A DNA stretch of 64,000 bases from Leucobacter exalbidus (GTDB lineage: Bacteria; Actinomycetota; Actinomycetes; Actinomycetales; Microbacteriaceae): NCBI RefSeq assembly GCF_017834145.1, contig NZ_JAFIDA010000001.1, positions 1,116,001-1,180,000 on the forward strand, in the 5' to 3' direction. The notes under the pieces are model-generated. The model searched no databases, was not told where the DNA came from, and saw only the letters and a list, made by a program, of their open reading frames with translations. Positions 9,596-41,813 of the stretch are shown here, piece after piece. Position 1 is the first letter of the stretch. Every line of letters starts with the position of its first letter. A program made the translations under genes and the position numbers.

Positions 9596-9622
9596 TCCAA
9601 TACTTTACCGCCGTCGCCTTAG

Positions 9623-10903: not shown

Positions 10904-11395
10904 GTGACCGCAGCGTTCGACGCCGTCATCGAAATCCCCAAGGGGAGCCGCAACAAGTACGAGATCGACCACGAGACGGGGCGCGTCTACCTTGACCGCG
11001 TACTGTTCACCGGTTTTGTGTATCCCGCCGATTACGGCTTCTTTGAGGAGACCCTCGGCGAAGACGGCGATCCGCTCGACGTGCTCGTACTGCTCGACTA
11101 CCCGGTCTACCCCGGCGTGGGCATCAAGGTACGCCCCGTGGGCGTACTACGCATGAGCGACGAGGCCGGCGGAGACGACAAGGTCGTTGCCGTGCAGGTG
11201 AAGGATCCCCGCTGGAGCCACATTCAGGATGTCGAAGATATCCCTGAGTACACCCGCAAGGAGATCGAGCACTTCTTCGAGCGTTACAAGGATCTTGAGC
11301 CCGGCAAGTGGGTCAAGGTTGATGCGTGGGGCAACGCGGCTGATGCCGAGCGCCTCATCGTTGAAGCTCAGGAGCGCCTGGCCTCACAGTCCTAA
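10904..11395 (+). CDS. ppa: Inorganic pyrophosphatase
   Basis: Hydrolyses pyrophosphate in the cytosol, pulling biosynthetic reactions forward. It is a family I enzyme of 163 aa with the signature [12 protein letters not shown] carrying the metal-binding aspartates, plus [14 protein letters not shown] at the N-terminus and [16 protein letters not shown] near the C-terminus. I chose GTG 10904 because AAGGAG lies 10 bp upstream and the protein then begins [14 protein letters not shown], as in homologues. It is followed by a strong bidirectional terminator. Confidence 0.97.
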
Positions 11396-11414
11396 GCTCT
11401 CCACGCAGTAACGC

Positions 11415-11453
11415 AAAAAGCGCTGGGAAACGATTCGTTTCCCAGCGCTTTTT
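11415..11453. terminator. Bidirectional intrinsic terminator between ppa and the M23 peptidase gene
   Basis: A perfect 18-bp stem (AAAAAGCGCTGGGAAACG and complement) with a 3-nt loop; A-tract on one side and T-tract on the other, so it can end both convergent transcripts. Confidence 0.93.
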
Positions 11454-11503
11454 GTCTGTGTGCGGGCCCGCAGCGGCCGGTGTGACCGCCGCGGTGATCG
11501 CGA

Positions 11504-12925
11504 TTACAGCGCGATGTAATCCTGCGGGTTCACGAACCCGTACCAACCGTTGTCTTGGTTGGGCCGCATCTCGAAGTGCAGGTGGCAACCGGTGCTCGCA
11601 CCGGTTGATCCGACGTAGCCAAGCACCTGACCTGCGCCCACGGGCTGGCCCGGGGCCACAGCGGCCCACTGAATCATGTGCGCGTACCGGGTCTGCCAAC
11701 CGTTGGGGTGGTTGACGGTCACCATGTTGCCGCCGGCGCCCTCTTCCCAGTAGGTGAGCGCGACGGTGCCCTCGGCCGCCGAAACGATCGGGGTGCCGCA
11801 AGCGGTCGCCAGGTCTGTACCGGTGTGATCCCAGCGGCCCGGGCTGCGGTAGCCCTCAGAGACGTAGTACCCCGAGGTGGGAATTGTCCAGCCGTTTGAC
11901 GTGTTGGGGGGCGGCGGTGCCGACGGAGCGGGCGCGGCCGGAGTCTCAGCGGGCGGGGCCGGGGCCTCACCGGGTGCTTCGGGCGCGGGAGTTGCGGTCA
12001 GTCCGTCTTCGATGCGGCGCCGTTCCAGTTCATCCAGGCGTGCCTGCTCGGCAGCCTCGGCGGCCTGACGCTCACGCTCAGCCTCTTCTGCGAGGCGCTG
12101 GCGCTCGGCCGCTTCCTCGGCCAGGCGCTTCGCTTCAGCGATGCGCTGTTCTTCTTCGATGCGCAGCCGCTCTTTGTAACCGTCAACGGTCTTCGACGTT
12201 TTGTCCTTCAACGCCTCAAGCTTGACCTCAAGGTCGCGCTGCTGCGCCTCTTGTTCAGCTACTAGTACGCCCTGCTGGGTGACAGCCGCGGCCGCGGATT
12301 CTTCCTTGACCTTCTGTTCCTGGCGTAGTACCTCGCGCTCGGCTTCAGCAGCTTCAGCCTGCTTACTCAGCGACGACGCCGTGTTCGCGGTCTGTTCGGC
12401 TTCTTCTGAGAGCTTCGAGTTGCGTTCGGTGGCCTTCGACATCGACGCCATGCGCTCAAGCAGCGCGTCTGCCGTGCTGGCATCAGAGTCGAGGAAGAGT
12501 TCCATGCTGCGGTCGACACCGCCCGAGCGGTACATCTGCGCGACGATAACGCTGGCCTGATCGGCGGCTTCTTGCGCCTTGATCTTGCTGGCTTCTGCCT
12601 CGGTGTTGAGCGTGTGCGCCTTGTCTGAGGCCACGGCGAGCGCCTCTTCGGCAACCTTGAGCTCGGCCAGCTCGCCCGCGTGCATGTTGCGGCGACGGTC
12701 GAGCTCTTTCTCGCCGTCAGCGATCAAGCCTTCAATTTCGGTGACCTTTTTATCGGCAGCGGCCTGGTTCTTCTTCGCTGCCTCAACGTCGTCCCACGTG
12801 GGGAGGTCAAGAGCCTGTGCTGCGGGAGCATTACCCTGCTGAACTACGGCCATGCCTGCAATGAATGCACACACACCCAGCACCGCGAGCCCTCGTCGAA
12901 ACCTCGAATGGGTCCGTACGCGCAT
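11504..12925 (-). CDS. Secreted coiled-coil M23 family metallopeptidase (EnvC/NlpD-like)
   Basis: A cell-wall hydrolase or hydrolase activator. The chosen ATG at 12925 gives MRVRTHSRFRRGLAVLGVC, a Sec signal peptide ending near AQA-LDLP. Residues about 50-300 form a long Glu/Ala/Lys/Gln-rich coiled coil, then a Pro/Ala linker (TPAPEAPGEAPAPPAETP). The C-terminal 130 residues are a peptidase M23 domain with zinc ligands in HTGTDLA and HLHFEMR and the intermediate RYAHM. All catalytic residues appear intact. Architecture suggests action at the division septum or during peptidoglycan remodelling; whether it cuts peptide bonds itself is inferred. It is convergent with ppa. Confidence 0.9.
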   Translation of the reverse strand: MRVRTHSRFRRGLAVLGVCAFIAGMAVVQQGNAPAAQALDLPTWDDVEAAKKNQAAADKKVTEIEGLIADGEKELDRRRNMHAGELAELKVAEEALAVASDKAHTLNTEAEASKIKAQEAADQASVIVAQMYRSGGVDRSMELFLDSDASTADALLERMASMSKATERNSKLSEEAEQTANTASSLSKQAEAAEAEREVLRQEQKVKEESAAAAVTQQGVLVAEQEAQQRDLEVKLEALKDKTSKTVDGYKERLRIEEEQRIAEAKRLAEEAAERQRLAEEAERERQAAEAAEQARLDELERRRIEDGLTATPAPEAPGEAPAPPAETPAAPAPSAPPPPNTSNGWTIPTSGYYVSEGYRSPGRWDHTGTDLATACGTPIVSAAEGTVALTYWEEGAGGNMVTVNHPNGWQTRYAHMIQWAAVAPGQPVGAGQVLGYVGSTGASTGCHLHFEMRPNQDNGWYGFVNPQDYIAL

Positions 12926-18707: not shown

Positions 18708-19640
18708 ATGAGCACCAGGCAGGTACCCATCCCTCCCGTCCAAGCCCCGCGCACCACCGCGATCTCGGCGCCCGGCGGAGCGACCACCAGCGGCCCCGTC
18801 GAAACCCAGTCGCCGGCACGCCGCAAGCTTTCAGCCACCCTCATCATCGGCATCATCCTCGTCGCGTTGGTCGCCGTCGCCGCCATCGTTTCGTTCGTGT
18901 GGACCCCGTATGATCCGGTGCAGGCCAACCCCGCCGCGCGCCTCGAAGGATCGAGCTTCGCGCACCTCATGGGCACCGATAAGTACGGCCGCGACGTGTT
19001 CTCGGCCATGCTGTTTGGCGCACGCATCACCCTGTTCGTGGGCGTCATCTCGGTGGGCATCGCGATTCTCATCGGCACCCCGCTCGGCATCCTCGCCGGC
19101 ATTCGCGGCGGCTGGATCGAAGAGGTCATCATGCGCACCTCTGACATCGCGCTCGCGTTCCCCGCGCTGCTGCTGGCCATCATGTTCAGCGCTGTGTTTG
19201 GCGCCTCGACCCTCACCGCCATGGTCGCGATCGGCATCGCGACGATCCCGGGGTTTGCGCGCGTCGCGCGATCCGGAACCCTACAGGTGATGAGCACCGA
19301 GTACATTCTCGCGGCCCGCGCCGCCAGCCAGTCGCGGTTTCGCATCGCCCTGCGCCACGTGCTGCCCAACATCATCGGCATCGTCGTCGTGCAGTCATCG
19401 GTGTCGTTCGCGCTCGCGGTGCTCGCCGAAGCCGGCCTCAGCTTCTTGGGCCTCGGCACTCCCCCGCCCACCCCGTCATGGGGCCGCATGCTGCAAGAGT
19501 CGCAGCAATTTCTCGGCACCGAACCCATGCTGGCCGTGTGGCCGGGCCTCGCCATCGCCATCGCAGTGATGGGCTTCAACCTGCTGGGTGACGGTCTGCG
19601 CGACCGCTTCGACCCCAAACTGAACGGGAGCCGCAGCTAA
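18708..19640 (+). CDS. ABC transporter permease, DppC type
   Basis: Second channel subunit, 310 aa. The N-terminus carries the OppC/DppC leader region and first helix (LSATLIIGIILVALVAVAAIV). It contains HLMGTDKYGRDVFSAMLFGARITLFVG, highly typical of DppC, and the EAA-type loop (TEYILAARAASQSRFRIALRHVLPN). It overlaps the ATPase gene by 1 bp (TAATG). Forms a heterodimer with the DppB-type partner. Confidence 0.94.
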   Translation: MSTRQVPIPPVQAPRTTAISAPGGATTSGPVETQSPARRKLSATLIIGIILVALVAVAAIVSFVWTPYDPVQANPAARLEGSSFAHLMGTDKYGRDVFSAMLFGARITLFVGVISVGIAILIGTPLGILAGIRGGWIEEVIMRTSDIALAFPALLLAIMFSAVFGASTLTAMVAIGIATIPGFARVARSGTLQVMSTEYILAARAASQSRFRIALRHVLPNIIGIVVVQSSVSFALAVLAEAGLSFLGLGTPPPTPSWGRMLQESQQFLGTEPMLAVWPGLAIAIAVMGFNLLGDGLRDRFDPKLNGSRS

Positions 19641-21454
19641 TGGCACCACGCACCTCTTCTCACGCCGCAGACGACCTGCTGCTGCGCGTCGACCACCTCA
19701 ACGTGCGCACCCCGCACCGCACCCTGGTGTCTGATTTCTCGCTGCACATGCAGCGTGGCGAGCGCATCGGGCTGATTGGCGAATCCGGATCAGGCAAATC
19801 CATGACCACGACCGCGCTGCTGGGCCTGCTGCCCAACGGCGTCACCGCCGACGGCTCGGTCAAGATCGACGGGTACGCAGGCAACCTGCTTGAGGCGCCC
19901 GAATCAGATCTCATGAAGCTGCGCGGCAACGACATGGCCATGGTGTTTCAGGAGCCGCTCACCGCGCTCAACCCGCTGATGCGGGCGGGCGCGCAGGTCG
20001 CCGAGATCATGCTGCAGCACAAGCTCGCCCCCAATAAGGCCGAGGCCAACCGCCGCGCCATTGAAATGCTGGCGTCGGTGCAGCTGCCCGACCCCGCGCA
20101 GGCCGCCCGCGCCTACCCCCACCAGCTCTCGGGCGGGCAACGTCAGCGCGTCATGCTCGCGATGGCGCTTGCCAACGACCCCGGGCTGCTGCTGTGCGAC
20201 GAGCCCACCACGGCGCTCGATGTCACCGTGCAGCGTCAGGTGCTCGACCTGATTTTGAACCTCGTGCGCGAGCGCGGCACGGGCCTGCTGTTCATCACGC
20301 ACGACCTCGCGGTGGTCGCCAACATGTGCACCCGCGTGCTCGTGATGAACAACGGTGTGGTCGTCGAGGAGGGCACGACCGAAGAGGTCTTCACCCGCCC
20401 GCAGCACCCCTACACCCGCGGGCTGCTCGCCGCCTCAGACCTCGATGCCCTCGACAGCGACGGCCGCCTCTTCACCGTCGCGACCGCGCAGGCGTATGTG
20501 CCGCCGACCGTCGGCGAGGATGCTGAGGCTGAAGCTGCTGAGGCTGCCGCGGCTGAGATTGTTGCTGAGGTGATTGATCCGGATCATGCCGCATCGTCAC
20601 CCGTCAGCACCGGAGCAGCCAGCGCAGCGTCAGCCAGCACCGCGGCGCCCGTGATGCGGGTCACCGATCTCGTGCGCACGTACACCCGCGGCAAGACGAG
20701 TCTGTTTGGTAAGGCGCCCCAGGTGCAGGCGCTCAAGGGCATCTCGTTTGAGGTGCCCGAGGGCGGCCGGCTTGGCGTCGTCGGCGAATCGGGGTCGGGC
20801 AAATCGACCCTACTGCGCATCCTTGCGGGCCTCGATCAGCCCACCTCGGGCAGCGCGATTGTCGCCGGTAACGAGGTCGCTGGTGCGAAGGAAGCCGAGC
20901 TGCGTGAGCTGCGGCAGAACCTGCAGATCGTGTTTCAAGACCCGATGGGGTCGCTTGATCCGCGTATGACCGTTGAGCAGATCATCTCTGAGCCGCTGCT
21001 GGTGCGCGGCCGCCGCGAAACCTCGGCCGAGCGCAAGCGCATGGTCGCCGAGATGCTCGAATCGGTGGGGCTTCCCGCCGAGGCAGCATCGCGGTTTCCG
21101 CACCAGTTCTCGGGTGGTCAGCGCCAGCGCATCTCGATCGCCCGCGCCCTGATCTGCCGGCCCCGCGTGGTCGTCGCCGATGAGCCCGTGAGCGCGCTCG
21201 ATGTGTCAGTGCGCGCGCAGGTGCTCAATCTGCTTGCCGATCTTGTCGATGAGTATGGGCTCACGCTCGTGTTTGTGTCGCACGACCTGAACGTGGTGCG
21301 GTACCTGTGTGATTCGGTGATCGTGATGCAGTCGGGCGAGATTGTGGAGGCCGGTGACACCGAGTCGGTGTACCGCGACCCGCAGCACCCCTACACGCGT
21401 CGCCTCATCGATTCGTCGCTCACGCTGCGCCAGGAGCTCGCCAACAACCTGTAG
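19640..21454 (+). CDS. Fused double ATPase (DppD-DppF type) of the peptide ABC transporter
   Basis: Two nucleotide-binding domains in one 604-aa chain. The first has Walker A GESGSGKS, signature LSGGQRQR and Walker B LLLCDEPTTALD. The second has Walker A GESGSGKS, signature FSGGQRQR and VVVADEPVSALD. An Ala/Glu-rich linker (about residues 290-335) joins them. Each half ends with the QHPYTR segment typical of oligopeptide ATPases. Powers uptake through the two permeases. The fusion is common in actinomycetes. Confidence 0.95.
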   Translation: MAPRTSSHAADDLLLRVDHLNVRTPHRTLVSDFSLHMQRGERIGLIGESGSGKSMTTTALLGLLPNGVTADGSVKIDGYAGNLLEAPESDLMKLRGNDMAMVFQEPLTALNPLMRAGAQVAEIMLQHKLAPNKAEANRRAIEMLASVQLPDPAQAARAYPHQLSGGQRQRVMLAMALANDPGLLLCDEPTTALDVTVQRQVLDLILNLVRERGTGLLFITHDLAVVANMCTRVLVMNNGVVVEEGTTEEVFTRPQHPYTRGLLAASDLDALDSDGRLFTVATAQAYVPPTVGEDAEAEAAEAAAAEIVAEVIDPDHAASSPVSTGAASAASASTAAPVMRVTDLVRTYTRGKTSLFGKAPQVQALKGISFEVPEGGRLGVVGESGSGKSTLLRILAGLDQPTSGSAIVAGNEVAGAKEAELRELRQNLQIVFQDPMGSLDPRMTVEQIISEPLLVRGRRETSAERKRMVAEMLESVGLPAEAASRFPHQFSGGQRQRISIARALICRPRVVVADEPVSALDVSVRAQVLNLLADLVDEYGLTLVFVSHDLNVVRYLCDSVIVMQSGEIVEAGDTESVYRDPQHPYTRRLIDSSLTLRQELANNL

Positions 21455-21502
21455 GCGCGCTGTTTTTGCTTTCACCTTCGTTTCCCTCAAGAAAGTAGCC
21501 CC

Positions 21503-22912
21503 ATGACTTCCCCCTCCGCGCCCCGCTACGCAGACCTCGACGCCGCCGCCCTCTCGGCTGCGTACGCCGATGGTTCGCTCACCCCGAGCGCGGTGCTTGA
21601 GGATGTCATTGCGCGGGTCGAGGCCCGCGAACCCGTGCTCAACGCGTTCTACCTCTTCGACGCCGAGCAGGTGCGCGCCGATGCTGCGGCCTCGACCGCG
21701 CGCTGGGCAGCGGGTACTCCCCTGAGCCCGTTCGACGGTGTGCCCGTCACGGTGAAGGAGAACGTGGCCCGTGCGGGGCTTCCCAAGCCCTCGGGCACCG
21801 CAATACCGAACCCGCCGATCGCTGAGCACAACGCCCCCATCACCGACCGTCTCCTCGAGGCCGGCACCGTGATCATCGGCTCGACCACGATGCCCGACTG
21901 GGGCATGCTTTCATCGGGCGTCTCGAGCTTGCACGGCGTCACGCGCGGTGGCCTCAACCCCGCTCACACTTCGGGTGGCTCAAGTGCTGGCGCCGGTGCC
22001 GCGGCATCGGCGGGCTACGGTCCGTTCCACATTGGCACCGACATCGGTGGGTCGATCCGGCTGCCAGGCACCTGGCAGGGGCTCACCGCGCTGAAGCCGA
22101 GCGAGGGCCTGATTCCGCTCGACGGCCCGTACATGGGGCGCGCGGCCGGCCCGCTCACTCGCACCGCCGCCGACTCGATCAGGCTGATGTCGATCGTCGC
22201 GCGGCCCGACGCCCGCGATTACCTCACGCGCGCCTACCCCGCCATGGACTGGTCAACGACGCCGCTGGCCCCCGCGGGCATGCGGGTCGCGGTGCAGCTC
22301 GATGCGGGGTCTGGCATCGACGTCGAGCCCGAAACCCGTGCCGCGATCGAGCGCGCGGCTCAGCTCTTCGCTGAGGCCGGCGCCGAGGTGACGCCGCTCG
22401 CGCCGTTCATCGGGCCCGAGGTACTCGACGGCATCGTCGATTTCTGGCGCAGCCGCTCGTACGCCGACTACGAGCTGCTGAGCGAGGAAGAGCGCGCGCT
22501 CGTGCTGCCGTTCATCGCTGAGTGGTGCGCCGCCGGCGCCGATTTCAGCGCGGCGCAGACCGTGCGCGGCCGCGGCATGATGGACCAGATGGCGCGCCTC
22601 ACCCGCGAGGCCACCGAGCCGTTCGATCTCGTGCTGTCGCCGGTGACGCCCGTCGCGGCGTTCCCCGCCGAGGATCCGATGCCGCTCACCGATCCGCGCG
22701 TAACGATGGGCCACATTTCATTCACCGTGCCGTACAACATGTCGGGTCAGCCCGCGGTTTCAGTGGGCGCGGGTATTCAGGCCGACGGCCGCACCATCGG
22801 CTTGCAGATCGCTTCACACATCGGCACCGACGATATGCTGCTGCGCGTTGCCGCATGGTTTGAAACGGTGCGCGGCGCAGACGCAACGGTCGACTGGTCG
22901 CTGCTGCCGTAG
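21503..22912 (+). CDS. Amidase signature family hydrolase
   Basis: Hydrolyses a C-N amide bond with a Ser-cisSer-Lys triad. Visible: the lysine in DGVPVTVKENVA (about residue 84), the Gly/Ser-rich core TSGGSSAGAGAA (about 156-167) and the nucleophile region GTDIGGSIRLP (about 175-185). It is 469 aa, normal. Located 48 bp after the ABC ATPase on the same strand, it probably acts on the imported compound. Substrate class is inferred only. A terminator hairpin follows at 22943. Confidence 0.9.
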   Translation: MTSPSAPRYADLDAAALSAAYADGSLTPSAVLEDVIARVEAREPVLNAFYLFDAEQVRADAAASTARWAAGTPLSPFDGVPVTVKENVARAGLPKPSGTAIPNPPIAEHNAPITDRLLEAGTVIIGSTTMPDWGMLSSGVSSLHGVTRGGLNPAHTSGGSSAGAGAAASAGYGPFHIGTDIGGSIRLPGTWQGLTALKPSEGLIPLDGPYMGRAAGPLTRTAADSIRLMSIVARPDARDYLTRAYPAMDWSTTPLAPAGMRVAVQLDAGSGIDVEPETRAAIERAAQLFAEAGAEVTPLAPFIGPEVLDGIVDFWRSRSYADYELLSEEERALVLPFIAEWCAAGADFSAAQTVRGRGMMDQMARLTREATEPFDLVLSPVTPVAAFPAEDPMPLTDPRVTMGHISFTVPYNMSGQPAVSVGAGIQADGRTIGLQIASHIGTDDMLLRVAAWFETVRGADATVDWSLLP

Positions 22913-26936: not shown

Positions 26937-28175
26937 TCAGTTATCGAGCAGCGCCGCCGCATACATCGGCCGTGCCGAGTCGGCGCTCGGGGGGTGGAAC
27001 AGGCCCGCTGTGGCATCGCGAAAGATGCGGCTCATCTCGTGCCCGTTTCCATAACCCGATCCGCTGGTGCACATCAGCGCGGCTTCGGCACAGCTGCGGG
27101 CTGCGTCGCCGCCAGCGAGACGCGCTGCCACTAAGAGCAGCGGCCAGCGAGCACCGTGATCGATACCCTCGTCAAGGTCACGCGCGCAGACCGCGAGCTG
27201 CGCGGGGGCCGCAAGGTAAGCGCGGTGCGCGTCGGCGAGGCGAGCCCGGGCCTCAGGGTTCTCGGCGAGCGAGGCCCCCGTCTTCACCGAGCGGCGCTTG
27301 TGCAGCCCCGCGGCGCCCAGCTCAAGCGCACGCCAGGCAACGCCCGTGTACACCGAGCCAACGAGCAGCTGGAAGCAGCTGGTGATCGCGAAGACGAGCA
27401 GGTCGGGGGTGCGCCCGGGCGCGAGCTTGCGCGCGACGCGTTCGGGCCTCACCAGCGCACCCTCGAGGCGTGTGGTGCGGCTGTGCGAGGCCCGCATGCC
27501 CAGCACATCCCAGTCACTCGAGGTCAGAATCGTGCCGCCGACGGTCTCGGCGGTCTGATCGGCCAGCGTCGCGGGGTCTTCGCTCTTGATGCGGGGGCGC
27601 TCGATGAAGCCGTACACCAGCTCGGGAGCATCACTATCGGTGGTGTCGAGCCCGTGCACGATCAGCCGCGTCCATGCCGGCGACAGCGACGTGAAGATCT
27701 TGGTGCCGGTGAACAGGTAGCCGCCGTCTGGCTGCGGCACGGCCTGCGTTTGTGATCCCTGCAGCACCCAGTCGTTCGCGGGCTCACTGATACCAAAGGC
27801 GAAGATCTCACCCGCCATCGCTTCGGTCAGTACGTAGTCGAGCGACTGGTCGCCGCGCTCGCGCATCACCCGGGCGACGCCTGTGCACATCAGGTGCATG
27901 TTGACGGCGAGGGCGGTCGCGGGGGCCGCCGTTGCCAGCCGCTGCTGCAGGCACGACAGTTCATCGAGGCTCGCTTCGGGGCCGCCAAACTCTGCCGGTA
28001 CGAGGCAGGTCAGGTAGCCGTTGGCGGCCAGCTCGACAATATCCTCAGCGCAGAATCGGTTTTCGCGGTCGTACACGGCGGCGCGCTCACGAAACCGCTC
28101 CAGCAGTTCAGTGGGCAGAAACCGCTGTGCGAGCTCTTCGTATCGGGCTTCTCGGCTGGGTGTCTGCATGCTCAT
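26937..28175 (-). CDS. Acyl-CoA dehydrogenase-like flavoprotein
   Basis: 412 aa from the ATG at 28175, which overlaps the ketosynthase stop (ATGA) and follows GGAGGAACC. Fold features: an N-terminal helical domain (VELAANGYLTCLVPAEFGG), a middle FAD-binding beta domain (FAFGISEPANDW, LFTGTKIFTSLSPAW) and a C-terminal helical bundle. It probably reduces or oxidises an acyl thioester C-C bond using FAD. Last gene of a ligase-ketosynthase-dehydrogenase operon, so it may act on the product of the condensing enzyme rather than in beta-oxidation. The conserved catalytic Glu could not be placed with confidence. Confidence 0.8.
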   Translation of the reverse strand: MSMQTPSREARYEELAQRFLPTELLERFRERAAVYDRENRFCAEDIVELAANGYLTCLVPAEFGGPEASLDELSCLQQRLATAAPATALAVNMHLMCTGVARVMRERGDQSLDYVLTEAMAGEIFAFGISEPANDWVLQGSQTQAVPQPDGGYLFTGTKIFTSLSPAWTRLIVHGLDTTDSDAPELVYGFIERPRIKSEDPATLADQTAETVGGTILTSSDWDVLGMRASHSRTTRLEGALVRPERVARKLAPGRTPDLLVFAITSCFQLLVGSVYTGVAWRALELGAAGLHKRRSVKTGASLAENPEARARLADAHRAYLAAPAQLAVCARDLDEGIDHGARWPLLLVAARLAGGDAARSCAEAALMCTSGSGYGNGHEMSRIFRDATAGLFHPPSADSARPMYAAALLDN

Positions 28176-29548
28176 CTGGGTTCCTCCACGTTGACGGGTA
28201 AACAGTTGATAGGTCTGCGCAGCACGATGGCCGCGTTGTGGCCGCCAAACCCAAACGATGTTGAGAGGGCGGTGTCGAACCGCGATCCGCATCCGGCCGC
28301 TGCGCCGCGACCGGTTGCGGCAGCGGGCATGGTCCCGTCAGCAGGCACAGTCTCGGCAGCGTGTACGGTGACGACCCGGGGCGCGGTGACGAAGTTCCAG
28401 CCGGGCTCTTCGGGGTCATCGAGGTTGCGGGTGGGCGGCAGCACGCCCGCATTCAGCGCCTGCACCGTGATGATCGCCTCGACGATCCCGGCGGCCCCCA
28501 GCAGGTGCCCCGTGGTCGATTTGGTGGCGCTGATGGGAATCTCGCGCGCCCGCTCGCCGAGCGCCGCGTCAAACGCGCGCAGTTCGGCCGTGTCACCCGC
28601 GGGGGTGCCCGTGCCGTGCGCGTTGATGTGATCGATGGCCGTCGCATCGATCCCGGCGTCTGCCAGGCAAGCTCGAATGGCCTGCGCGGCCCCGCGGCCC
28701 TCAGGGTGCGGAGCGGTGGGATGGTGCGCGTCGCTCGAGGCCCCAAACCCGGCGAGCTCGGCGAGCACCCGGGCGCCCCTGCGGCGAGCGCTTGACGCTG
28801 ATTCGATCAAAATCGCGGCGGCGCCCTGGGCCATCACGAATCCGGAGCGTGCGCGGTCGAAGGGTCTGGAGGCTGCGGCGGGGTCTGATTCGTAGCCTGC
28901 AGCGAGCGCCCGCAGGTTGGCGTTGGAGGCGAGGTTTATGGGGTTGAGGCAGTCTTCCATGCCGATGACGAGCACGGCGTCGGCGTAGCCGTGGCGAATG
29001 CGCCGCATGCCTTCGCCGAGCCCGATGGCCCCGCTTGCGCAGGTCGCCGAGACGCCCTGGGATGGGCCGTGGAATCCGTATCGTTGGCTGAGCAGGGCGG
29101 CGGCCGAATCGGGGGCGCCGTGCATGGCGAGGGTGAGGGGCACGGCGCGGGGGCCGCGGGCGTCGAAGGCGCGGGTGGCGTGCTGCATGGCGTCGATGGG
29201 GCCAGAGCCTGTGGCCGCGATGACCGCGACGCGTGTGCGATCCCACGGCAGCGGGGCGGCGGGGTCGTAGGGAGCAATACCCGCCTGCGTGAGTGCCTCG
29301 TCTGCGGCGGCGATGGCCCACTGCTGCACGGGGCTGATGCGCTTGGCCCGTTGCTGGCCGACGGCGAGCGCGCCGTCGAAGCCGCGCACTTGGCCGCCGA
29401 TGCGCACGGCGAGCGGCGCGAATGCATCACCGGTGAGTGCGGTGACGGCGCTGTGCCCCTCGCGCACAGCTTTCCATAGGGCTTCGGCACTGTTGCCGTT
29501 GGGGGTGATGGCCCCGAAGCCGGTAATTACCACGTGTTCGAAGGTCAC
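28172..29548 (-). CDS. Beta-ketoacyl synthase (FabF-like condensing enzyme)
   Basis: 458 aa from the GTG at 29548 (MTFEHVVITGFGAITPNG), overlapping the ligase stop as GTGA. The Cys-His-His set is complete: Cys in GVSATCASGAIGLGEG, first His in NAHGTGTPAGD, second His in TTGHLLGAAG. It should do decarboxylative Claisen condensation of an acyl group with a malonyl unit. No malonyltransferase, ketoreductase or carrier-protein gene is visible nearby, so it must borrow carriers from elsewhere or use CoA esters. The C-terminus carries an Ala/Thr/Gly-rich insertion (VPADGTMPAAATGRGAAAG). Operon partners are an adenylating ligase and an acyl-CoA dehydrogenase. Confidence 0.88.
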   Translation of the reverse strand: MTFEHVVITGFGAITPNGNSAEALWKAVREGHSAVTALTGDAFAPLAVRIGGQVRGFDGALAVGQQRAKRISPVQQWAIAAADEALTQAGIAPYDPAAPLPWDRTRVAVIAATGSGPIDAMQHATRAFDARGPRAVPLTLAMHGAPDSAAALLSQRYGFHGPSQGVSATCASGAIGLGEGMRRIRHGYADAVLVIGMEDCLNPINLASNANLRALAAGYESDPAAASRPFDRARSGFVMAQGAAAILIESASSARRRGARVLAELAGFGASSDAHHPTAPHPEGRGAAQAIRACLADAGIDATAIDHINAHGTGTPAGDTAELRAFDAALGERAREIPISATKSTTGHLLGAAGIVEAIITVQALNAGVLPPTRNLDDPEEPGWNFVTAPRVVTVHAAETVPADGTMPAAATGRGAAAGCGSRFDTALSTSFGFGGHNAAIVLRRPINCLPVNVEEPR

Positions 29549-31107
29549 AGGCGCTCGGCCTCCCCCGCGATCACGAGGTCGCATGTCTCGCCGCGCCTGA
29601 TCTTGCCGCTTACGGTGCGGGGCAGCTGATTCATTCGGTACCATCTTGTCGGCACGAACTGGGGTGCGAGGTGGGCTTCGGCGTGCGCGCGCAGGGCGTC
29701 ACGGCTGGGGGCCTCCCCTTCAACGACGAGCCCGATCACGCTGCCGAGAGTGGGGTGCGGCAGCGCCACTGCACACACAGCAGCGGCCTCCGCCTGATCA
29801 CCCGTCGCTTCGAACGCGCGCTCCACCTCGAGCAGTGACACTTTGTGCCCTCCGGTGATGGCGATATCTCCTGCGCGGCCGAGCAGTTCGAGCTGGCCGT
29901 CGATGATGCGCGCCTGGTCGTGCACGGTCGCCCAGCCGTCGTCGCCCACCAGCCGTTCGGCGGTAGTGCCCGCCACATAGCCCAGCGAGCAGGCCGCGGC
30001 ATGAATCCACAGGGTACCGGGCTCCCCCTCGGGCACCGGGGCACCCGAGTCGGTGTCGCGCACACTCGCCTGCACTCCCCCGTACAGCGAGACGCGGGTG
30101 CCATCGCCCTCACGGCTGTCGCCGATGAAGCCGATCTCGGCGGCCCCGTAGTAACTGATGAGGCGTGCACCCGGCACCGATGCCGCAAGGGCCGTGCGAA
30201 TGCTCGCGGGCAGGTTCGCGCCGCCCGTAACGACAAGTTCAAGCCCCGCGAACGCTTGCGGGTTGCGCCGGGCCGCGACCGCGATGCCTTGCACGACGGC
30301 GGGTACGGCTACGACCCGGGTGATGCCCTCAGCTATCACGCGCGAGGCGAGCCCAAACGCGTCGAACTGATCGGCGAGGTGCACGCTGCCGCCCGTCGCC
30401 ATGCACTCGATAACGGCGTAGAGCGTGAGGCTGTACGACACCGGCCCGGGGGCAAGGGTGACGACCCCCGGCAGCGGTGCGAGGTGCGCGGTGGAGACCG
30501 CGAGGTTGGCTCGGTATTGGGCGCGCGTCTTCACAAACGCTTTGGGGTTGCTCGTCGTGCCCGACGAGAACAGCAGCAGGAAGGCTTCGTCGCCGTCGCG
30601 CACCGTGGGCTGCGGGGCATCTTGTTGCAGGTCAGTGAGGCGCACCAGCCGCGCGAACTCCATTGGCGCGATGACTGTACCGCCCCAGCCGCGAGCACGC
30701 AGCGCTGGTTCAAGGTCGTCAGCGGCCGAGATGACGACCCCGATGCCGGTGGTGAGGATGACATCGACGCGGTGCGCGAGCGGCCACCGCGGGTCGATCA
30801 CCGCAGACACCGCTCTGAACCCCGCGAGGCCCGCGACGATGCGCCCCGCGAGAAAGGCGGAGTCTGCACTGACCGCCGTCACCGCGATACCGCCTGTTTC
30901 GGGGGCCGGTGTTGGAGGCTCAGTCTGGCCGCGGTGCAGCGCATCGATCACGGCGAACATGCGGGCCGAGTCGGCCACCAGTTCGGCGTAGGTCAGCCGT
31001 TCGTGCCCTCGCACTTCGTCGAGGGCCGCCGCCCCACCAGAGCCCGCGATCGCCACCCGATCGGGGCACTGCGCCGCCGTCTCAAGAATCGCTCCGGTGA
31101 TCGGCAT
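29545..31107 (-). CDS. AMP-dependent acyl ligase (ANL superfamily)
   Basis: 520 aa. Activates a carboxylic acid as acyl-AMP and passes it to CoA or a carrier thiol. Motifs: P-loop-like FLLLFSSGTTSNPKAFVKT (A3), YYGAAEIGF (A5), the hinge region LGRAGDIAITGGHKV (A7/A8) and C-terminal RTVSGKIRRGE with the catalytic lysine (A10). First gene of a three-gene overlapping operon with a FabF-like ketosynthase and an acyl-CoA dehydrogenase. The acid it activates is unknown. It may supply the starter unit for the ketosynthase. Confidence 0.87.
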   Translation of the reverse strand: MPITGAILETAAQCPDRVAIAGSGGAAALDEVRGHERLTYAELVADSARMFAVIDALHRGQTEPPTPAPETGGIAVTAVSADSAFLAGRIVAGLAGFRAVSAVIDPRWPLAHRVDVILTTGIGVVISAADDLEPALRARGWGGTVIAPMEFARLVRLTDLQQDAPQPTVRDGDEAFLLLFSSGTTSNPKAFVKTRAQYRANLAVSTAHLAPLPGVVTLAPGPVSYSLTLYAVIECMATGGSVHLADQFDAFGLASRVIAEGITRVVAVPAVVQGIAVAARRNPQAFAGLELVVTGGANLPASIRTALAASVPGARLISYYGAAEIGFIGDSREGDGTRVSLYGGVQASVRDTDSGAPVPEGEPGTLWIHAAACSLGYVAGTTAERLVGDDGWATVHDQARIIDGQLELLGRAGDIAITGGHKVSLLEVERAFEATGDQAEAAAVCAVALPHPTLGSVIGLVVEGEAPSRDALRAHAEAHLAPQFVPTRWYRMNQLPRTVSGKIRRGETCDLVIAGEAERL

Positions 31108-31217
31108 GCGACACCTCCCAGTGATGCTTTACAGGCCCGTCATTGGCCCTGCGTCCATTCTAGGGACGACCACCGACGCCACAGCAATCACGGGCGGTCG
31201 CAGCGCGTGAAACCCGG

Positions 31218-35060: not shown

Positions 35061-35159
35061 CGGAGTATTCGCGAACAAACGCATGATCGAGGACTCAATC
35101 CATGATGGTGTTGCACCGAATGCTTCCGGGTGTGCCTCAACATCCGGCAGAATGGCCCT

Positions 35160-36617
35160 ATGTCTGTGCTCCCCACCGCACTCGCGATTCAGCGTCTCAG
35201 CGGCGCCAACGCGACGATCGACATGTTGCGCGCGAACACCTTGCCGGTTATGGCTGCTGTATTGGGCGAATATTTCGGGAGCCCGAGCACCCGTGTTCCG
35301 ACCGATGAGCTCCACGAACTCATCGACGCTGATTTACAGACCCTGCGTGAACATTTTGACCTGGGCACACAATCAGCGAAGGGTTTCTGCGATGGCTGGC
35401 GCGAAAAGAAGGTCATTATTCGACGGGCGGCCGAAGGCTCCCGCGGTGAGACGTATGAGCTCTCAGCAGCAGGCTTCGATGCGATCCGCATCATCGACCA
35501 GCTGATCACCCCGCAGTCAACGCTCACCGAGTCACGGCTGATGACGTTGGCCCAGTCACTACAATCTTTGGCGATTGATACCGACCCCGATACCTCACGA
35601 AAGCTGCGTGCACTAGAACAACAGCGGGAGCGCCTCGACGAGGAGATCACCCGGCTCCGCAGCGGAGAAGTCGAGCCCCTCGACCCGCGGGTCGCCACCG
35701 AGCGCATCACCGATATCTTGTTACAGGCGCAGGGACTCCCTGCAGATTTTGCGCGGGTACGAGCCCGATTCGAAGATCTAAACCAGGAACTTCGCGTCGC
35801 GATACTCAGTCTTGACGATCATCAAAGCAATGTGATCATGGAGATCTTTCGCGGTGTTGACCTCATCTCAGAGTCTGACGAGGGTCGCACATTTCAAGCG
35901 TTTTCAGGACTGATCCGCGACCCCGAAAGCTCTGCAGCATTTGAATCCAACGTACGCGAGATCCTGAACCGTGATTTTGCTTCCCAGCTGCCTGCTAACG
36001 CACGCCGCCAGATTCGCAACCTGTTACGCGACATGAAAATGGGGAGCCGTGATGTGCAGGGCACGCTCACCGAGTTTGCGCGCGGTTTGCGCCGCTATGT
36101 GAGGTCCCAGGACTATCAGCGTGACCGTGCGTTGCGCACGCTGATCCAGGAGGCGCTTTCAACCGCGGCCCCGGCCCGCATGGCGATCAAGCCGTTTACC
36201 GAGATCGGTATGAGTATCGACCTTCCCGTGATCTCGATGAGCAGCATCGGTGGGGTCTCGCCACATGATCCCTCAGCATTTGACGCGGGCGAGCTGCTAG
36301 GTGATGCCGAATCCGGGGAGGTTGATCTGGCACAACTCGTGTTGATCGCCCGCGAGAGTGAAATCGATTTTGCCGAACTCTCTTCAAATGTCAATAGTTA
36401 CCTTGAAGTGGCTGGCACCGGATCAGTAGCCGATGTGTTACGCGAGTTTCCATCTTCTCAGGGCCTCGCAAGCGTTGTGGGGCTCCTGGCTCTCGCCACA
36501 CGGCACGGCCTCGTCGACACAGACAACGCCGAGCAGCTCACCTGGACCGGCCTCGACGACGTTACTCGCACCGCAACTGTCACCCGTCACGTCTTTACCG
36601 AACGGATCGATTTATGA
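35160..36617 (+). CDS. jetA: Wadjet anti-plasmid protein JetA (DUF3375)
   Basis: Kleisin-like subunit (MukF analogue) of the Wadjet SMC complex that recognises and cleaves circular plasmid DNA. It is 485 aa from ATG 35160 (MSVLPTALAIQRLSGANATI); a GTG at 35130 is possible but adds an atypical leader. The N-terminal winged-helix region (FDLGTQSAKGFCDGWREKKVI), the coiled segment (RKLRALEQQRERLDEEITRL) and the C-terminal helix-rich part (DVLREFPSSQGLASVVGLL) agree with DUF3375. First of four overlapping genes; the stop overlaps jetB (ATGA). Visibly lower G+C than the core genes. Confidence 0.92.
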   Translation: MSVLPTALAIQRLSGANATIDMLRANTLPVMAAVLGEYFGSPSTRVPTDELHELIDADLQTLREHFDLGTQSAKGFCDGWREKKVIIRRAAEGSRGETYELSAAGFDAIRIIDQLITPQSTLTESRLMTLAQSLQSLAIDTDPDTSRKLRALEQQRERLDEEITRLRSGEVEPLDPRVATERITDILLQAQGLPADFARVRARFEDLNQELRVAILSLDDHQSNVIMEIFRGVDLISESDEGRTFQAFSGLIRDPESSAAFESNVREILNRDFASQLPANARRQIRNLLRDMKMGSRDVQGTLTEFARGLRRYVRSQDYQRDRALRTLIQEALSTAAPARMAIKPFTEIGMSIDLPVISMSSIGGVSPHDPSAFDAGELLGDAESGEVDLAQLVLIARESEIDFAELSSNVNSYLEVAGTGSVADVLREFPSSQGLASVVGLLALATRHGLVDTDNAEQLTWTGLDDVTRTATVTRHVFTERIDL

Positions 36618-37309
36618 CACAGTTTTTCGTCGACCCCCTCCTCGAAGAACACGCTGAGGGCTCGACCACGCTATCTTCGGGACTGTGGGAGGGCGACTCG
36701 GGTACGCTTGCCGACAGCTCCCGGCGTGCTCTACTCAAACTGATTCAGGGGCCCTATCTCTCGAGCAAACAGCACTCGCGGTTATGGACCGCTCTGCTCG
36801 CTGACCGTGTTCAGATTCAGTCGCGACTACACGATTTGTTTCTCGACGTCGTCATCGATGAGGTCGACGAATTAGCTTTTACCCGCAAGGTACACGCGCC
36901 CGAGTTTGATGCCCCGAGCGCACTCCGAAATGTGGCCCTCACGTACGCCGACACCATTTTGTTGTTGGTGCTGCGTCAGCAGCTACTCGCCACGGGCGGT
37001 GGGCGCCGCACCATCGTAAGCCAGACCGAGATCTTTGAGCAGCTTGCGATCTACCGCAATTCTGACACGGCCACATATGCTCGAAACCTCAACTCTGCGT
37101 GGACGCGCATGAGCAAGCAATACCGTGTCATCCACACCGTCGATGACGACCGTGTGGAGGTCTCGCCCCTCGTGAAATTCATGATCGACGAAGAACGGGT
37201 GCGCGCGCTTACCCAGGTGTACGAGAAATTGGCGGGCCTTGATCCGCAATCGCATACGACGGCCGATTTGCCAGAGCCTACCGCCGAGTCATCTGAGGAA
37301 CTTTCGTGA
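36614..37309 (+). CDS. jetB: Wadjet protein JetB (DUF4194)
   Basis: 231 aa; KITE-type winged-helix subunit (MukE analogue) linking JetA to the SMC protein. Recognised from FVDPLLEEHAEGS, SRRALLKLIQGPYLSSKQH, the DTILLLVLRQQLLATGGGR helix and VHTVDDDRVEVSPLVKFM, together with its fixed place between DUF3375 and SMC genes. Overlaps both neighbours by 4 bp, implying coupled translation and defined stoichiometry. Confidence 0.92.
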   Translation: MTQFFVDPLLEEHAEGSTTLSSGLWEGDSGTLADSSRRALLKLIQGPYLSSKQHSRLWTALLADRVQIQSRLHDLFLDVVIDEVDELAFTRKVHAPEFDAPSALRNVALTYADTILLLVLRQQLLATGGGRRTIVSQTEIFEQLAIYRNSDTATYARNLNSAWTRMSKQYRVIHTVDDDRVEVSPLVKFMIDEERVRALTQVYEKLAGLDPQSHTTADLPEPTAESSEELS

Positions 37310-40300
37310 ACACAGAGGCAATGAACAATGAAGCAGTGCCCGTTGCCCCCGGGCAGTGGCGCCTCGCTGAGGTACAGGTGGCGAACTGGGGAACATTCGA
37401 CGGGGCGATCTATCGCATCCCTGTGTCGCGCAAGGGTCAGCTCATCACTGGCCCATCTGGCTCAGGTAAATCATCACTTCTCGACGCCATCGCCACAGTA
37501 TTAACGCCAGATCGATGGCTGCGATTCAACCTCGCCGCGCAGGGAGCGGGTACCCGAAGCGACCAGCGCAGCCTCATGAGTTACGTGCGCGGAGCTTGGG
37601 CTCGCCGCACTGACGAGTTTGAAGATCGCGTGGTCAGTGAGTATTTGCGCCCAGGTCCCACTTGGAGCGGCATTGTGATGCGCTACGAGAATGGCGTCGA
37701 TCTACCGGTCACCCTGGCTCGACTGTTTTTCGCGAAGGGGAATGACACTTCACGGGAAAACCTCAGCAGCCTCTACGTGCTCGAGCGCGCTGCCCTCGAC
37801 CTGCGTGACCTAGAACCGTTCGCGCGAAGCGGTCTCGAGAGCCGCAAACTCCAAGCCGCATTTCCTGATGCGCTCGTTAATTCTGGCGGCAAGAACACCC
37901 GGTTCTATCAACGACTCCGATCCATATTTGGAATCGCAGACGAGAGTGCGCTGCAGCTGCTCCATAAGACGCAGTCGGCAAAGAATCTCGACAGCCTCAA
38001 CCAGCTGTTTCGTGAATCCATGTTGGAGAAGCCAGAAACATTCAAACTGGCAGAAGAAGCACGTACCCAGTTTGGTGAGCTCAACGAAGCACACGAACAC
38101 GTGGTGCGACTGCGCCAACAACGCGATCTTCTGGCCGGGTTGCGTGACGCCTCTATAGAATATGACCTCGCTGAAAGCCGCGCAGCGGCCGCCAGCACTC
38201 TCGGCGCGCACGTGCTGCTGTATCAGCGCCAGCGACAGCTTGAACTAGCTTTCGCGGAACGTACCAAGATTGAGGAACACCTCATCGTGCTGCGTGCCGA
38301 TAGTGAGTACGCAGCAGCCCAACTGCGCGCTGCCGAGGAATCCTACGATGTCTCGCGTCAACGCACCTTAGAACTGGGTGGCGGCGACGTCGAACAACTG
38401 CGACTCCGTGTAGAAAGCGCAGCCGCGCAGGTTGAATCCACCGAGCGGCGGTGGCAGCAGATGGCAGACCGGCTGGCGAAGCTCGGCATTGCTCCTGCCC
38501 CCGTAAATGCGTCAGAATTTGCTGAGTTGGTGGCGGAGGGGTTTCGATCAGGAGCCGCGGCGAGCGCTGAGAGCGCGAGCGGCCCCAGCATCAAAGAACA
38601 CGACCAGCTTGCGGTCGCGCGACACAACGCTCAGCAGTTGGAACGCGAAATTGATGCGCTCGCGCGCAGCAAGAGCTCTGTTCCAGAGAAGCTACAAGTC
38701 GTGCGTAAAGACTTGGCCGAGCATCTGGGGGTCCCCGTCACAGCCCTCCCGTTTGCTGCAGAGCTACTTGAGGTCAATGCACAGTACGCCGCTTGGACCG
38801 GCGCATTCGAACGGGTCCTGAAGCAGTTCGCACTCACCCTGCTCGTGCGCAGCGAACATCTGATTGCTACCCGCCGATGGGTCGATGCACGGTCATTGCA
38901 ACTTCTACTCGTTTACGAAGAAGTCCTGCCCCATGTCCAGCCGCCCAAGCCCGTCAGTTCGAATTCATCACTGGTGCACCGGGTCACAGTCAAGCCCGGC
39001 GCATTCGAAGCGTGGATGCACCGCACGCTCTCGGAACGGTTTGACTATGCATGCGTCGACCAGCCCGACCAGTTCGATGATCATGCACGCGCAGTGACCA
39101 TTAACGGGCAGATCAAATCATCACGCACCCGGTATGTAAAGGACGACCGCGTTTCAATCGGCAACCGTGGCCGTTGGATTTTGGGGGACCATGAAGCCAA
39201 GCACGAAGCCCTCGTTGAGCTACTGGCTTCGGCCCGCGCAGAGGTGAATCGTTACGAAGACATCGTCGATGCAGCCACCCGTCAACGAGACTTCGCCCTG
39301 CTGCGCGAGGACACGTTGAACGATCTGCGCACACGGCCGTGGGCCGAGTTCGATGTGTCCAGCGCCAAAACCGATGTCGACCGATTACATAAGAACCTCG
39401 TAGAGCTGACGGGCACAAACTCTGATCTTGCAGTAGCGCAAGAGCGTCTGGACAATTCCAGGCAGGCACGCGATCTTGCCAATGGACGGGTGTCGCAGCT
39501 CGAAAGCGATCGACAAACAGCCGAGCGACGTCTCGGTGAGCTCGCCGAAATGATCGCTGAGATCGAATCACGACGAGCTGACGATGGCACCGGTCTGCAC
39601 CTCACTGACGAACTCCGCACCGATCTGCAAACGCGATTTGCCGCTGTACGTCGCAGCATCACGTTGATCACCCTGGCCGAAACCGGTCAGCAGGTTTCTG
39701 AGCGTCTCTATCGAGAGCGAGACCAGGCGAAGGCGATCGCCGATAAAGCCGGTTCTGAAATTACCAGCATCGCTACTAAGTTTCGTGAGCGATGGCGTGG
39801 GGCATCAGCAGACCTCGTGGCAAACGTCGAAGGCCGACACGGGTTCATCGAACTGTATGACGGGATCGTCGCGAATGGGCTTCCCGATCATGAATCACGG
39901 TTCTTTGATCTGCTGCGCGATCGTTCACGCGACATGGTTGGCCAGCTCGTCGACGAAATCATGCATGCACCCGACGAGATTGAAGCTCGCATCGATCCCG
40001 TAAATGCGTCGCTGCGCAGGTCTGCATTTGACGAGGCCCGCTACTTACATATTGAGGTTAAGACGAAGCGGGGCGAAGCTGCCACCCGGTTTTTGCAACA
40101 GCTTCGGTCCATTTCTGAAAACAGTTGGGCTGACGACAATGCCGCTGATGCCGAGCACAGGTTTGCCACGCTTTCGGCGCTGATGCAAAGGCTCGATTCG
40201 AGTGATCCACAGGATCGAAAGTGGCGAGATCTGTGTTTAGACACCCGCCTTCACGTGACGTTCTTAGCTCACGAAATCGACGACAGCGGCAGACGTCATT

Positions 40301-40647
40301 CCACGTATGACTCAGGTGCGGCCATGTCGGGTGGCCAGCAGCAGAAGCTTGTGGTGTTCTGCCTCGCGGCGGCGTTGAGATACCAGCTTGCGGACCCCGA
40401 TGACCCGCTGCCGCGATACGGCACGATCGTGCTTGATGAAGCATTTGATAAGGCCGACAGCAGGTACACCCGACTCGCCCTCGACGTGTTTCAAGAGTTC
40501 GGGTTTCAGATGGTGCTGGCGACGCCACACAAGCTCCTGCAAACCATCGAGCCGTATGTGGGCGGGGCGACTGAGGTGGAGAACCCGACTCGGGCCCGGT
40601 CCCACGTGTCGAGTCTCATGTGGGAGAACCCGCGAGGAGCCGCATGA
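37306..40647 (+). CDS. jetC: Wadjet SMC-like ATPase JetC
   Basis: MukB/SMC-type motor of 1113 aa that extrudes DNA loops to sense small circles. Walker A GPSGSGKS at residues 49-56, two long coiled-coil arms (about 260-450 and 650-780) around a hinge region (about 480-620), ABC signature SGGQQQKL near 1008, and Walker B YGTIVLDEAFDKAD near 1043 followed by a VLATPHK switch. Starts at GTG 37306 overlapping the jetB stop; ATG 37321 is an alternative. All ATPase motifs are intact, so the system looks functional. Confidence 0.95.
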   Translation: MNTEAMNNEAVPVAPGQWRLAEVQVANWGTFDGAIYRIPVSRKGQLITGPSGSGKSSLLDAIATVLTPDRWLRFNLAAQGAGTRSDQRSLMSYVRGAWARRTDEFEDRVVSEYLRPGPTWSGIVMRYENGVDLPVTLARLFFAKGNDTSRENLSSLYVLERAALDLRDLEPFARSGLESRKLQAAFPDALVNSGGKNTRFYQRLRSIFGIADESALQLLHKTQSAKNLDSLNQLFRESMLEKPETFKLAEEARTQFGELNEAHEHVVRLRQQRDLLAGLRDASIEYDLAESRAAAASTLGAHVLLYQRQRQLELAFAERTKIEEHLIVLRADSEYAAAQLRAAEESYDVSRQRTLELGGGDVEQLRLRVESAAAQVESTERRWQQMADRLAKLGIAPAPVNASEFAELVAEGFRSGAAASAESASGPSIKEHDQLAVARHNAQQLEREIDALARSKSSVPEKLQVVRKDLAEHLGVPVTALPFAAELLEVNAQYAAWTGAFERVLKQFALTLLVRSEHLIATRRWVDARSLQLLLVYEEVLPHVQPPKPVSSNSSLVHRVTVKPGAFEAWMHRTLSERFDYACVDQPDQFDDHARAVTINGQIKSSRTRYVKDDRVSIGNRGRWILGDHEAKHEALVELLASARAEVNRYEDIVDAATRQRDFALLREDTLNDLRTRPWAEFDVSSAKTDVDRLHKNLVELTGTNSDLAVAQERLDNSRQARDLANGRVSQLESDRQTAERRLGELAEMIAEIESRRADDGTGLHLTDELRTDLQTRFAAVRRSITLITLAETGQQVSERLYRERDQAKAIADKAGSEITSIATKFRERWRGASADLVANVEGRHGFIELYDGIVANGLPDHESRFFDLLRDRSRDMVGQLVDEIMHAPDEIEARIDPVNASLRRSAFDEARYLHIEVKTKRGEAATRFLQQLRSISENSWADDNAADAEHRFATLSALMQRLDSSDPQDRKWRDLCLDTRLHVTFLAHEIDDSGRRHSTYDSGAAMSGGQQQKLVVFCLAAALRYQLADPDDPLPRYGTIVLDEAFDKADSRYTRLALDVFQEFGFQMVLATPHKLLQTIEPYVGGATEVENPTRARSHVSSLMWENPRGAA

Positions 40648-41813
40648 TGAGCGTGGCGGCTGCTCGCGTGGCCGCCCGCGAGCGCATCGCCAAGAATTTG
40701 GGGGTCTGGGCTTCTTCACTGGCTGCGGGGTCGACAGATCCTTGGTCGCTCTCAATCGCGCTCAAGCCACCGACCGAAGCTCAGGCACTCGCAGATCTCT
40801 CAGCTGCAGAAGTTTGGGCCCGCAGTTGGCGGGCCGCGATGCCCGCCGAAAGCGCCGCACTTGATTGGGAGACGCGTAACTGGCGCAGGATCGGGCGGCA
40901 AGAAGTACCGGTGCGATTGCGCTTCGCCTCCCCTGACGCCATAGCCACGTTCGTTGGTGGTACGGCGGCACATGATTGGCATCTCGTACGTGATCGCACG
41001 GCTCTCGCCGCTGCACAATTTGGTTCGAGTGAGGCTTTAGGTGCTGTGATCCGGCGCCACGTGCGCACTATTCTTGGATACGACGATGCGGAGTGGGAGC
41101 AGGTGCTTGCTGCTGCGCAGTGGCTGAGTGAGAATTCGGTAGCCGGGCTGCGACCCAGGCAGCTGCCGCTCCGAGGCGTCGACACAAAATGGTTTGCCTC
41201 CCATCGCGCGGTGGTGACCGATCTACTCGCGGCGTTAGTGCCCGGCCACGCGCTAGGCGTGGTAGAGAGTGACATGCTCTACCGGGTGCGCGTGCTAGAT
41301 CAGGATCTCAGTGCGCACAGCCTTGGTGGACTCAGCGATTTTTCGGCGCCCCTCATGCAGCTCGCCGGGCTCACCCTCGAACCAAGGGTGGCATTCGTGT
41401 TTGAGAACAAGGAGTCGGTGCTTGCGATGCCTGAGTGGGCGGGTGCCATCGCGATTCACGGGAATGGCCTCGACATCGCTGCCGTCGCCGATCTTCCGTG
41501 GATGCAACGCTGCCCCATTGTGTATTGGGGTGATCTTGATTCGGCCGGGTTTGCGATTCTCAACAGGCTGAGACTTCATCATTCTCGGGTCACAACGGTC
41601 TTAATGGACGACGACACACTACTTGCCCACCGAGACCTGTGGGTCACCGACAAGAGTCCCGTTCGTGGAGAACTCACTATGCTTCTGCCGCAAGAACTTC
41701 GCACCGTGCATCGGCTACAGCTTGAGGCCGATGCTCGGCTGGAACAAGAACGAATTCCCTGGGAGACGGCTTTGGCAGCGTTGCGAAAAGCAGATCCAGA
41801 CGGCGTAATCTGA
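40644..41813 (+). CDS. jetD: Wadjet nuclease JetD (DUF3322/DUF2220, Toprim-type)
   Basis: 389 aa from ATG 40644, overlapping the jetC stop (ATGA) with GAGGAG upstream. The N-terminal DUF3322 region binds DNA; the C-terminal DUF2220 region is Toprim-like. The metal-binding Glu is in FENKESVLAMPE (about residue 253) and the acidic pair in YWGDLDSAGF (about 295). In Wadjet this is the topoisomerase VI-like endonuclease that cuts the plasmid. Catalytic residues are present. Order A-B-C-D fits type I Wadjet. Confidence 0.94.
   Translation: MMSVAAARVAARERIAKNLGVWASSLAAGSTDPWSLSIALKPPTEAQALADLSAAEVWARSWRAAMPAESAALDWETRNWRRIGRQEVPVRLRFASPDAIATFVGGTAAHDWHLVRDRTALAAAQFGSSEALGAVIRRHVRTILGYDDAEWEQVLAAAQWLSENSVAGLRPRQLPLRGVDTKWFASHRAVVTDLLAALVPGHALGVVESDMLYRVRVLDQDLSAHSLGGLSDFSAPLMQLAGLTLEPRVAFVFENKESVLAMPEWAGAIAIHGNGLDIAAVADLPWMQRCPIVYWGDLDSAGFAILNRLRLHHSRVTTVLMDDDTLLAHRDLWVTDKSPVRGELTMLLPQELRTVHRLQLEADARLEQERIPWETALAALRKADPDGVI

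Follow-up and report, generated by a model that had tools for sequence, protein, structure and literature searches.

A ligase, ketosynthase and flavoprotein operon of Leucobacter exalbidus and its possible kinship with biotin-uptake-linked ligase and condensing-enzyme modules

Three overlapping minus-strand genes occupy positions 26937–31107 of the window, by which we mean the whole 64,000-nucleotide stretch of Leucobacter exalbidus DNA analysed here. The first gene of the operon (29545–31107) encodes an AMP-forming acyl ligase (LIG) of 520 residues, the second (28172–29548) a FabF-type beta-ketoacyl synthase (KS) of 459 residues counted from its GTG start, and the third (26937–28175) a flavoprotein of the acyl-CoA dehydrogenase fold that lacks the catalytic Glu of that family and resembles the group D monooxygenases. 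Consecutive genes share four base pairs, as an earlier note on this DNA had described. A GTGA overlap at 29545–29548 joins the LIG stop codon TGA (29547–29545) to the KS start codon GTG (29548–29546), and an ATGA overlap at 28172–28175 joins the KS stop codon (28174–28172) to the flavoprotein start codon ATG (28175–28173). On the same strand, a Shine-Dalgarno-like element read from the sequence, GGGAGGTG, precedes LIG at 31112–31119, and comparison by eye places a −10-like TAGAAT further upstream, at 31157–31162; at many of the triad loci this element recurs upstream of LIG in the form TAGAMTGG, again as judged by eye.

Domain assignments agree with those of the earlier note. LIG matches the Pfam AMP-binding family (110 bits) together with AMP-binding_C, KS matches the N- and C-terminal ketoacyl-synt families (140 and 128 bits), and the flavoprotein matches Acyl-CoA_dh_2 (41.6 bits) and Acyl-CoA_dh_N (27.4 bits), all above the respective cut-offs. 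Alignment of LIG homologues shows that the ATP-binding and A8/A10-type motifs, including the catalytic Lys, are conserved. The operon holds no gene for a carrier protein, ketoreductase, acyltransferase or thioesterase, also as first noted, and the absence of ACP, AT and KR genes near the triad speaks against membership of a type II FAS or PKS system. Since the genome, a single 3.18-Mb contig, encodes a free-standing ACP beside its housekeeping FabF, the description 'carrier-less' is true of the operon and not of the cell. This ACP, at 418 kb, is the only free-standing one; one other PP-binding domain is found, within a 1395-residue ORF, and the contig contains only two full FabF-type KSs.

Elsewhere in the window, positions 35130–41813 (plus strand) carry a complete Wadjet type I-like defence operon, jetABCD (DUF3375, DUF4194, MukB-like and JetD), in which all four genes are strong matches in PADLOC. 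A run of acyl-CoA dehydrogenase, acyl-CoA ligase and enoyl-CoA hydratase genes at 55939–59492 (plus strand) has the look of an ordinary catabolic module; the best model for its first gene is cyclohexanecarboxyl-CoA dehydrogenase, under the cut-off, and a LysR-type regulator lies beside the run at 54921–55832 (minus strand). Genes for an ABC transporter permease and a fused ATPase, followed by an amidase, lie at 18708–22912 (plus strand).

The catalytic residues of KS are intact (TCASG, NAHGTG and KSTTGHL), and the Cys-His-His set is kept in every full-length homologue. KS shares its fold, these catalytic residues and about 40% identity with housekeeping FabF (KAS II), from which it differs in forming a separate clade, in its ligase partner and at several acyl-pocket positions; against the FabF model TIGR03150 it scores 377.6 bits, under the curated cut-off of 493.75. 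With FabF numbering transferred by hand on to an alignment of 32 sequences, the position matching I108 is Pro in 28 and Ala in 4, that matching F133 is Leu or Val in 31, and that matching S136 is always His or Tyr. These pocket changes suggest that KS may accept a non-standard acyl group. Basic residues are kept at the positions of FabF Arg127 (29/32) and Arg206 (27/32), which we take to be ACP-docking residues, and their retention is consistent with a KS that could dock to ACP. A simple FAS II paralogue is ruled out by the separate KS clade and the lack of an ACP.

The flavoprotein departs from the acyl-CoA dehydrogenases at their catalytic Glu. In an alignment with 7xp7, this residue (Glu376 of MCAD), the Glu of a YEGT motif, falls on a Pro of FHPP, and by eye no Glu is present at the alternative position, Glu254 of IVD. 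The best matches to its AlphaFold model (pLDDT 82) are 5z8t and 5gj7, followed by KijD3, TdsC and dehydrogenases; 5gj7 and 5z8t are the top Foldseek and VIA matches, with true dehydrogenases close behind. The protein is most likely an FMN-type monooxygenase or oxidase, as far as sequence and model can indicate. The desaturated product suggested in the earlier note, if ascribed to the flavoprotein, finds no support, given that the catalytic Glu is a Pro and that the nearest structures are flavin monooxygenases and nitrososynthases. The missing Glu, together with a KS in the place of a thiolase, also rules out a beta-oxidation operon.

Homologues of the flavoprotein are found in 19 of the 21 genomes tested, including four that lack the module, a spread that rules out its co-occurrence as evidence of function. 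Its neighbours elsewhere, which include nrdHIE (recognised by gene size only), an abhydrolase, an aminotransferase, an M20 peptidase and an FMN reductase, point to no single pathway. Three stand-alone homologues (L197, L198 and L205) lie divergent from a gene for an NADPH-dependent FMN reductase.

The triad is a compact, conserved module, beyond chance, and it is stand-alone because the remaining neighbourhood differs between genera. Of 200 Microbacteriaceae genomes sampled, 12 carry the KS clade, and Leucobacter, Microbacterium, Agrococcus and Pseudoclavibacter all hold the triad as a separate unit. At every intact locus LIG adjoins KS, and 22 of the 30 loci retain the 4-bp overlap between them, a count in which L042 and L060 are one and the same locus. 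The flavoprotein is the third gene in one set of loci, its ATGA junction with KS recurring in L039, L051, L054, L055, L058, L061 and L126 among others, and is missing from the locus in a second set of ligase–KS pairs, or dyads (L044–L050 and L063–L067). In Microbacterium elymi (L068, 8130–12491) the triad matches are split across frames, so that the operon is either frameshifted or misassembled. Genes surrounding the triads vary from genome to genome, and no FAS or PKS set lies beside a triad at any locus compared; the homologous loci are thus not fragments of a standard set, and the earlier view that this is neither a fatty-acid synthase nor a beta-oxidation operon is borne out. A search of viral contigs gave no relative, and a literature search for a Leucobacter or Microbacterium ketosynthase cluster gave nothing relevant.

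The ligase gives an indication of context. In trees without the Microvirga ligase, LIG of the window falls in one clade (100/100) with bioY-linked ligases and those of the Rhizobium plasmids, apart from generic ligases of the same genomes, and the same clade is recovered at 100 in a quick tree with Azospirillum added. LIG relatives adjoin biotin transporter genes at L064–L067, L134, L191 and L215–L217. At L064–L067 bioY is divergent from LIG, as read from the sequence. At L191, from another actinobacterium, bioY and LIG are followed by ATPase and T-type protein genes (bioMN). In L134, from another actinobacterial family, a single-strand run (6303–12517) comprises a YbgC-type thioesterase, ECF genes, bioY, LIG, a thiolase and an MDR reductase with MECR-type enoyl-thioester reductases among its PDB matches. 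Azospirillum plasmids carry, in a single run, genes annotated as ECF ATPase, EcfT, BioY, AMP-binding protein and thiolase, and Microvirga has overlapping genes for an ECF ATPase, a CbiQ-type T protein, BioY, LIG, a thiolase and a MaoC dehydratase. Operons of this bioMNY–ligase–thiolase kind (L134, L215, L216 and L217) span Actinomycetota and Alphaproteobacteria, with a thioesterase, MDR reductase or MaoC dehydratase as extras.

Other observations run against a biotin link. LIG of the window is not beside biotin transporter genes, the bioY of its own genome lying about 0.9 Mb away, and no biotin genes were found near the triads. The LIG homologues of L190, whose host has BioB, and of Rhizobium plasmids, where a thioesterase–LIG–thiolase run lies divergent from an MDR reductase, are likewise not beside bioY. 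Some ligase–KS loci adjoin a different importer: a MetNIQ-like ABC system (MetQ/NlpA lipoprotein, MetI and MetN) lies beside or upstream of the pair in L044–L048 and L057, in several genera and orientations, which suggests an alternative importer for the substrate of the module.

Family models add little for the window copy itself. PRK07638 and PRK06690, which we take to be the YhfT and YhfS models, have cut-offs that were each exceeded by exactly one of 14 control genomes. PRK07638 is the top-scoring NCBIfam model for the ligases of L134, L190, L191 and Rhizobium, and the thiolases beside LIG relatives score PRK06690 slightly under a generic thiolase model. LIG of the window reaches 125.7 bits against PRK07638 (NF005797, equivalog; cut-off 518), the best relative reaches 309, and LIG is outscored by other ligases of its own genome; the model is thus not discriminating here, and the biotin link rests on the clade test.

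Regulatory evidence is confined to part of the family. The published predicted BioQ site, TGAAC-N3-GTTCA (PMC3398298), lies upstream of bioY in many Microbacteriaceae, and in L. exalbidus the strict box, TGAACRNYGTTCA, occurs once only, between a TetR gene and bioY. An exact box is present upstream of LIG in all five Microbacterium dyads, compared with 0 of 300 shuffles for each. In these five genomes the strict box has just two locations, the ligase promoter and one conserved TetR (bioQ) locus, which in L186 and L187 adjoins ECF ATPase and T genes. No BioQ box was found upstream of the triads tested, including that of the window, where the best match to the site has three mismatches and 156 of 300 shuffles do equally well. 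In a careful ligase tree the operator dyads are sister to the triads of the window, L053 and L058 (100/99), with the L043 triad outside; the quick tree leaves the dyad/triad group unresolved. In the KS tree, in which three FabF outgroup rows look mistranslated, the five dyads group together at 100/100 and their placement among the triads is poorly resolved.

We consider it likely that the ligase–KS family is linked to biotin. For the window triad, which has neither the operator nor an adjacent bioY, the link rests on homology, and we favour its persistence there only slightly. No match to BioB was found in the L. exalbidus genome at E ≤ 0.001, and the organism is a biotin auxotroph on the evidence of its genome, but BioB is missing from nearly all Microbacteriaceae whether the module is present or absent, so that auxotrophy is uninformative as a correlate of the module. 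Biosynthesis of pimelate or biotin by the triad is rejected because its hosts lack BioB.

The earlier note saw in the locus a small biosynthetic cluster, and the compact, conserved, stand-alone module that it implied is upheld; isolation of the cluster is not, since the LIG/KS family is physically and regulatorily tied to biotin uptake. A rival explanation in line with its reading, in which the triad has moved out of the biotin context and makes a small acyl product of its own, for example from a starter acid and one malonyl unit with oxidation by the flavoprotein, would account for the triads that have neither a BioQ box nor a biotin gene nearby, for the added flavoprotein and for loci scattered like accessory clusters. 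We nevertheless think it unlikely, because no conserved self-resistance, export or further biosynthetic gene was found near the triads, the dyads under biotin control form a sister group to the triads or fall among them, and the 4-bp overlap architecture is common to both. A variant in which the triad yields not biotin but an antimetabolite of it, oxidised or altered in its chain, would make use of a biotin-linked ligase and KS beside an oxidising flavoprotein of monooxygenase type; the lack of a conserved exporter or resistance gene, in a host that is itself a biotin auxotroph, leaves it highly improbable. The triad probably does not form a secondary-metabolite cluster of its own.

Our preferred explanation, put forward tentatively, regards the operon as a form that the biotin-uptake-linked module of ligase and condensing enzyme (the yhfT-yhfS type) takes in Microbacteriaceae, with a decarboxylating FabF-type KS in the place of the thiolase. 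Thiolases can run in either direction, whereas condensation with malonyl-ACP by FabF-type KSs is normally irreversible. Because KS and thiolase fill the same slot beside the same ligase, formation of a carbon–carbon bond is indicated, and because KSs are normally irreversible the shared chemistry looks like the addition of two carbons to an imported acid. What the analysis shows is the anatomy of the operon, the intact motifs of KS and LIG, the ligase clade, the ties of relatives to biotin genes by position and operator, and the absence of BioB from the host; the direction of the chemistry, the substrate, the use of FAS II and the role of the flavoprotein are inferred. LIG would adenylate a carboxylic acid taken up through a biotin-type importer and convert it to a CoA or ACP thioester. 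The active-site Cys of KS would accept this acyl group, and irreversible condensation with malonyl-ACP of the host FAS II would lengthen it by two carbons; the FAS II ketoreductase, dehydratase and enoyl reductase would then saturate the product, to be released by hydrolysis or transfer. In triads of the Leucobacter type the flavoprotein may oxidatively modify the substrate or an intermediate. The dehydratase, MDR reductase and thioesterase genes that accompany the module in other lineages would suit elongation followed by saturation and release.

The imported acid would be one suited to biotin importers, and a biotin vitamer with a shortened side chain is the simplest candidate; our guess is bisnorbiotin, which would be returned to biotin, or a similar shortened form, so that an auxotroph could salvage damaged vitamin. 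Elongation of a biotin vitamer by two carbons is possible but doubtful. Among the papers listed in our searches on bisnorbiotin, none dealt with its salvage or elongation by bacteria.

Two other readings keep the link to biotin and change the chemistry. In the first, low biotin would limit acetyl-CoA carboxylase, and the ligase would activate exogenous fatty acids from which the condensing enzyme rebuilds chains, sparing malonyl-CoA. Biotin-responsive control of the relatives suits such a starvation bypass, but a FabF-type KS would use up malonyl-ACP that is itself in short supply, the clade and pocket changes show that this is not a generic FabF, and some of the operons hold thioesterase and reductase genes; we judge it distinctly unlikely. 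The second, breakdown of excess biotin by activation and beta-oxidation of the side chain, gains from the ligase and thiolase genes of bioMNY operons, one of which includes a MaoC hydratase. It is improbable, however, given that decarboxylative KSs normally run irreversibly in the synthetic direction, that the flavoprotein lacks the dehydrogenase Glu, and that yhfT-yhfS of S. aureus is repressed and not induced by biotin.

Taken to its conclusion, the preferred explanation amounts to vitamin repair: auxotrophs would import bisnorbiotin, the ligase would activate it, and the KS (a thiolase in other phyla) and fatty-acid enzymes would extend it to biotin. We offer this as speculation that is more probably wrong than right. 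If true, it would be a previously undescribed route, would explain the yhfT-yhfS genes of the BirA regulon and would matter in soil, plant-associated and host-associated communities that include biotin auxotrophs. A ligase of this kind recurs beside a condensing enzyme in bioMNY operons of two phyla, and in Microbacteriaceae a KS, normally irreversible, fills the thiolase slot, which favours chemistry that lengthens an imported acid.

Among described systems the nearest is yhfT-yhfS of Bacillus subtilis and Staphylococcus aureus, which belongs to the BirA regulon with bioY/yhfU. Like it, the module sets an AMP-forming acyl ligase beside a condensing enzyme of the thiolase superfamily, and in relatives of the module these genes adjoin bioY. 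The yhfT-yhfS products of the two species are described as a putative ligase and acetyltransferase, and in S. aureus the genes are repressed by biotin through BirA (PMC7235819, PMC6391492). The module differs in that its condensing enzyme is a FabF-type KS and not a thiolase, in the additional flavoprotein of the triads, and in its biotin-responsive repressor, which is BioQ (TetR), in the Microbacterium dyads only, instead of BirA. BioZ (the subject of PMC7645780 and PMC8024396) is a beta-ketoacyl synthase that makes a pimeloyl precursor. Like the KS of the proposed module, it is a ketosynthase drawn into biotin metabolism to extend an activated acid by a single malonyl unit; BioZ, however, is KS III-like and works in de novo synthesis, in hosts with the later bio genes, whereas the KS described here is of FabF type and occurs in genomes without BioB. 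The group D flavin monooxygenases (5z8t, KijD3, DnmZ and TdsC/DszC) are the nearest sequences and folds to the flavoprotein, at only 19–27% identity, and the triad includes no flavin reductase.
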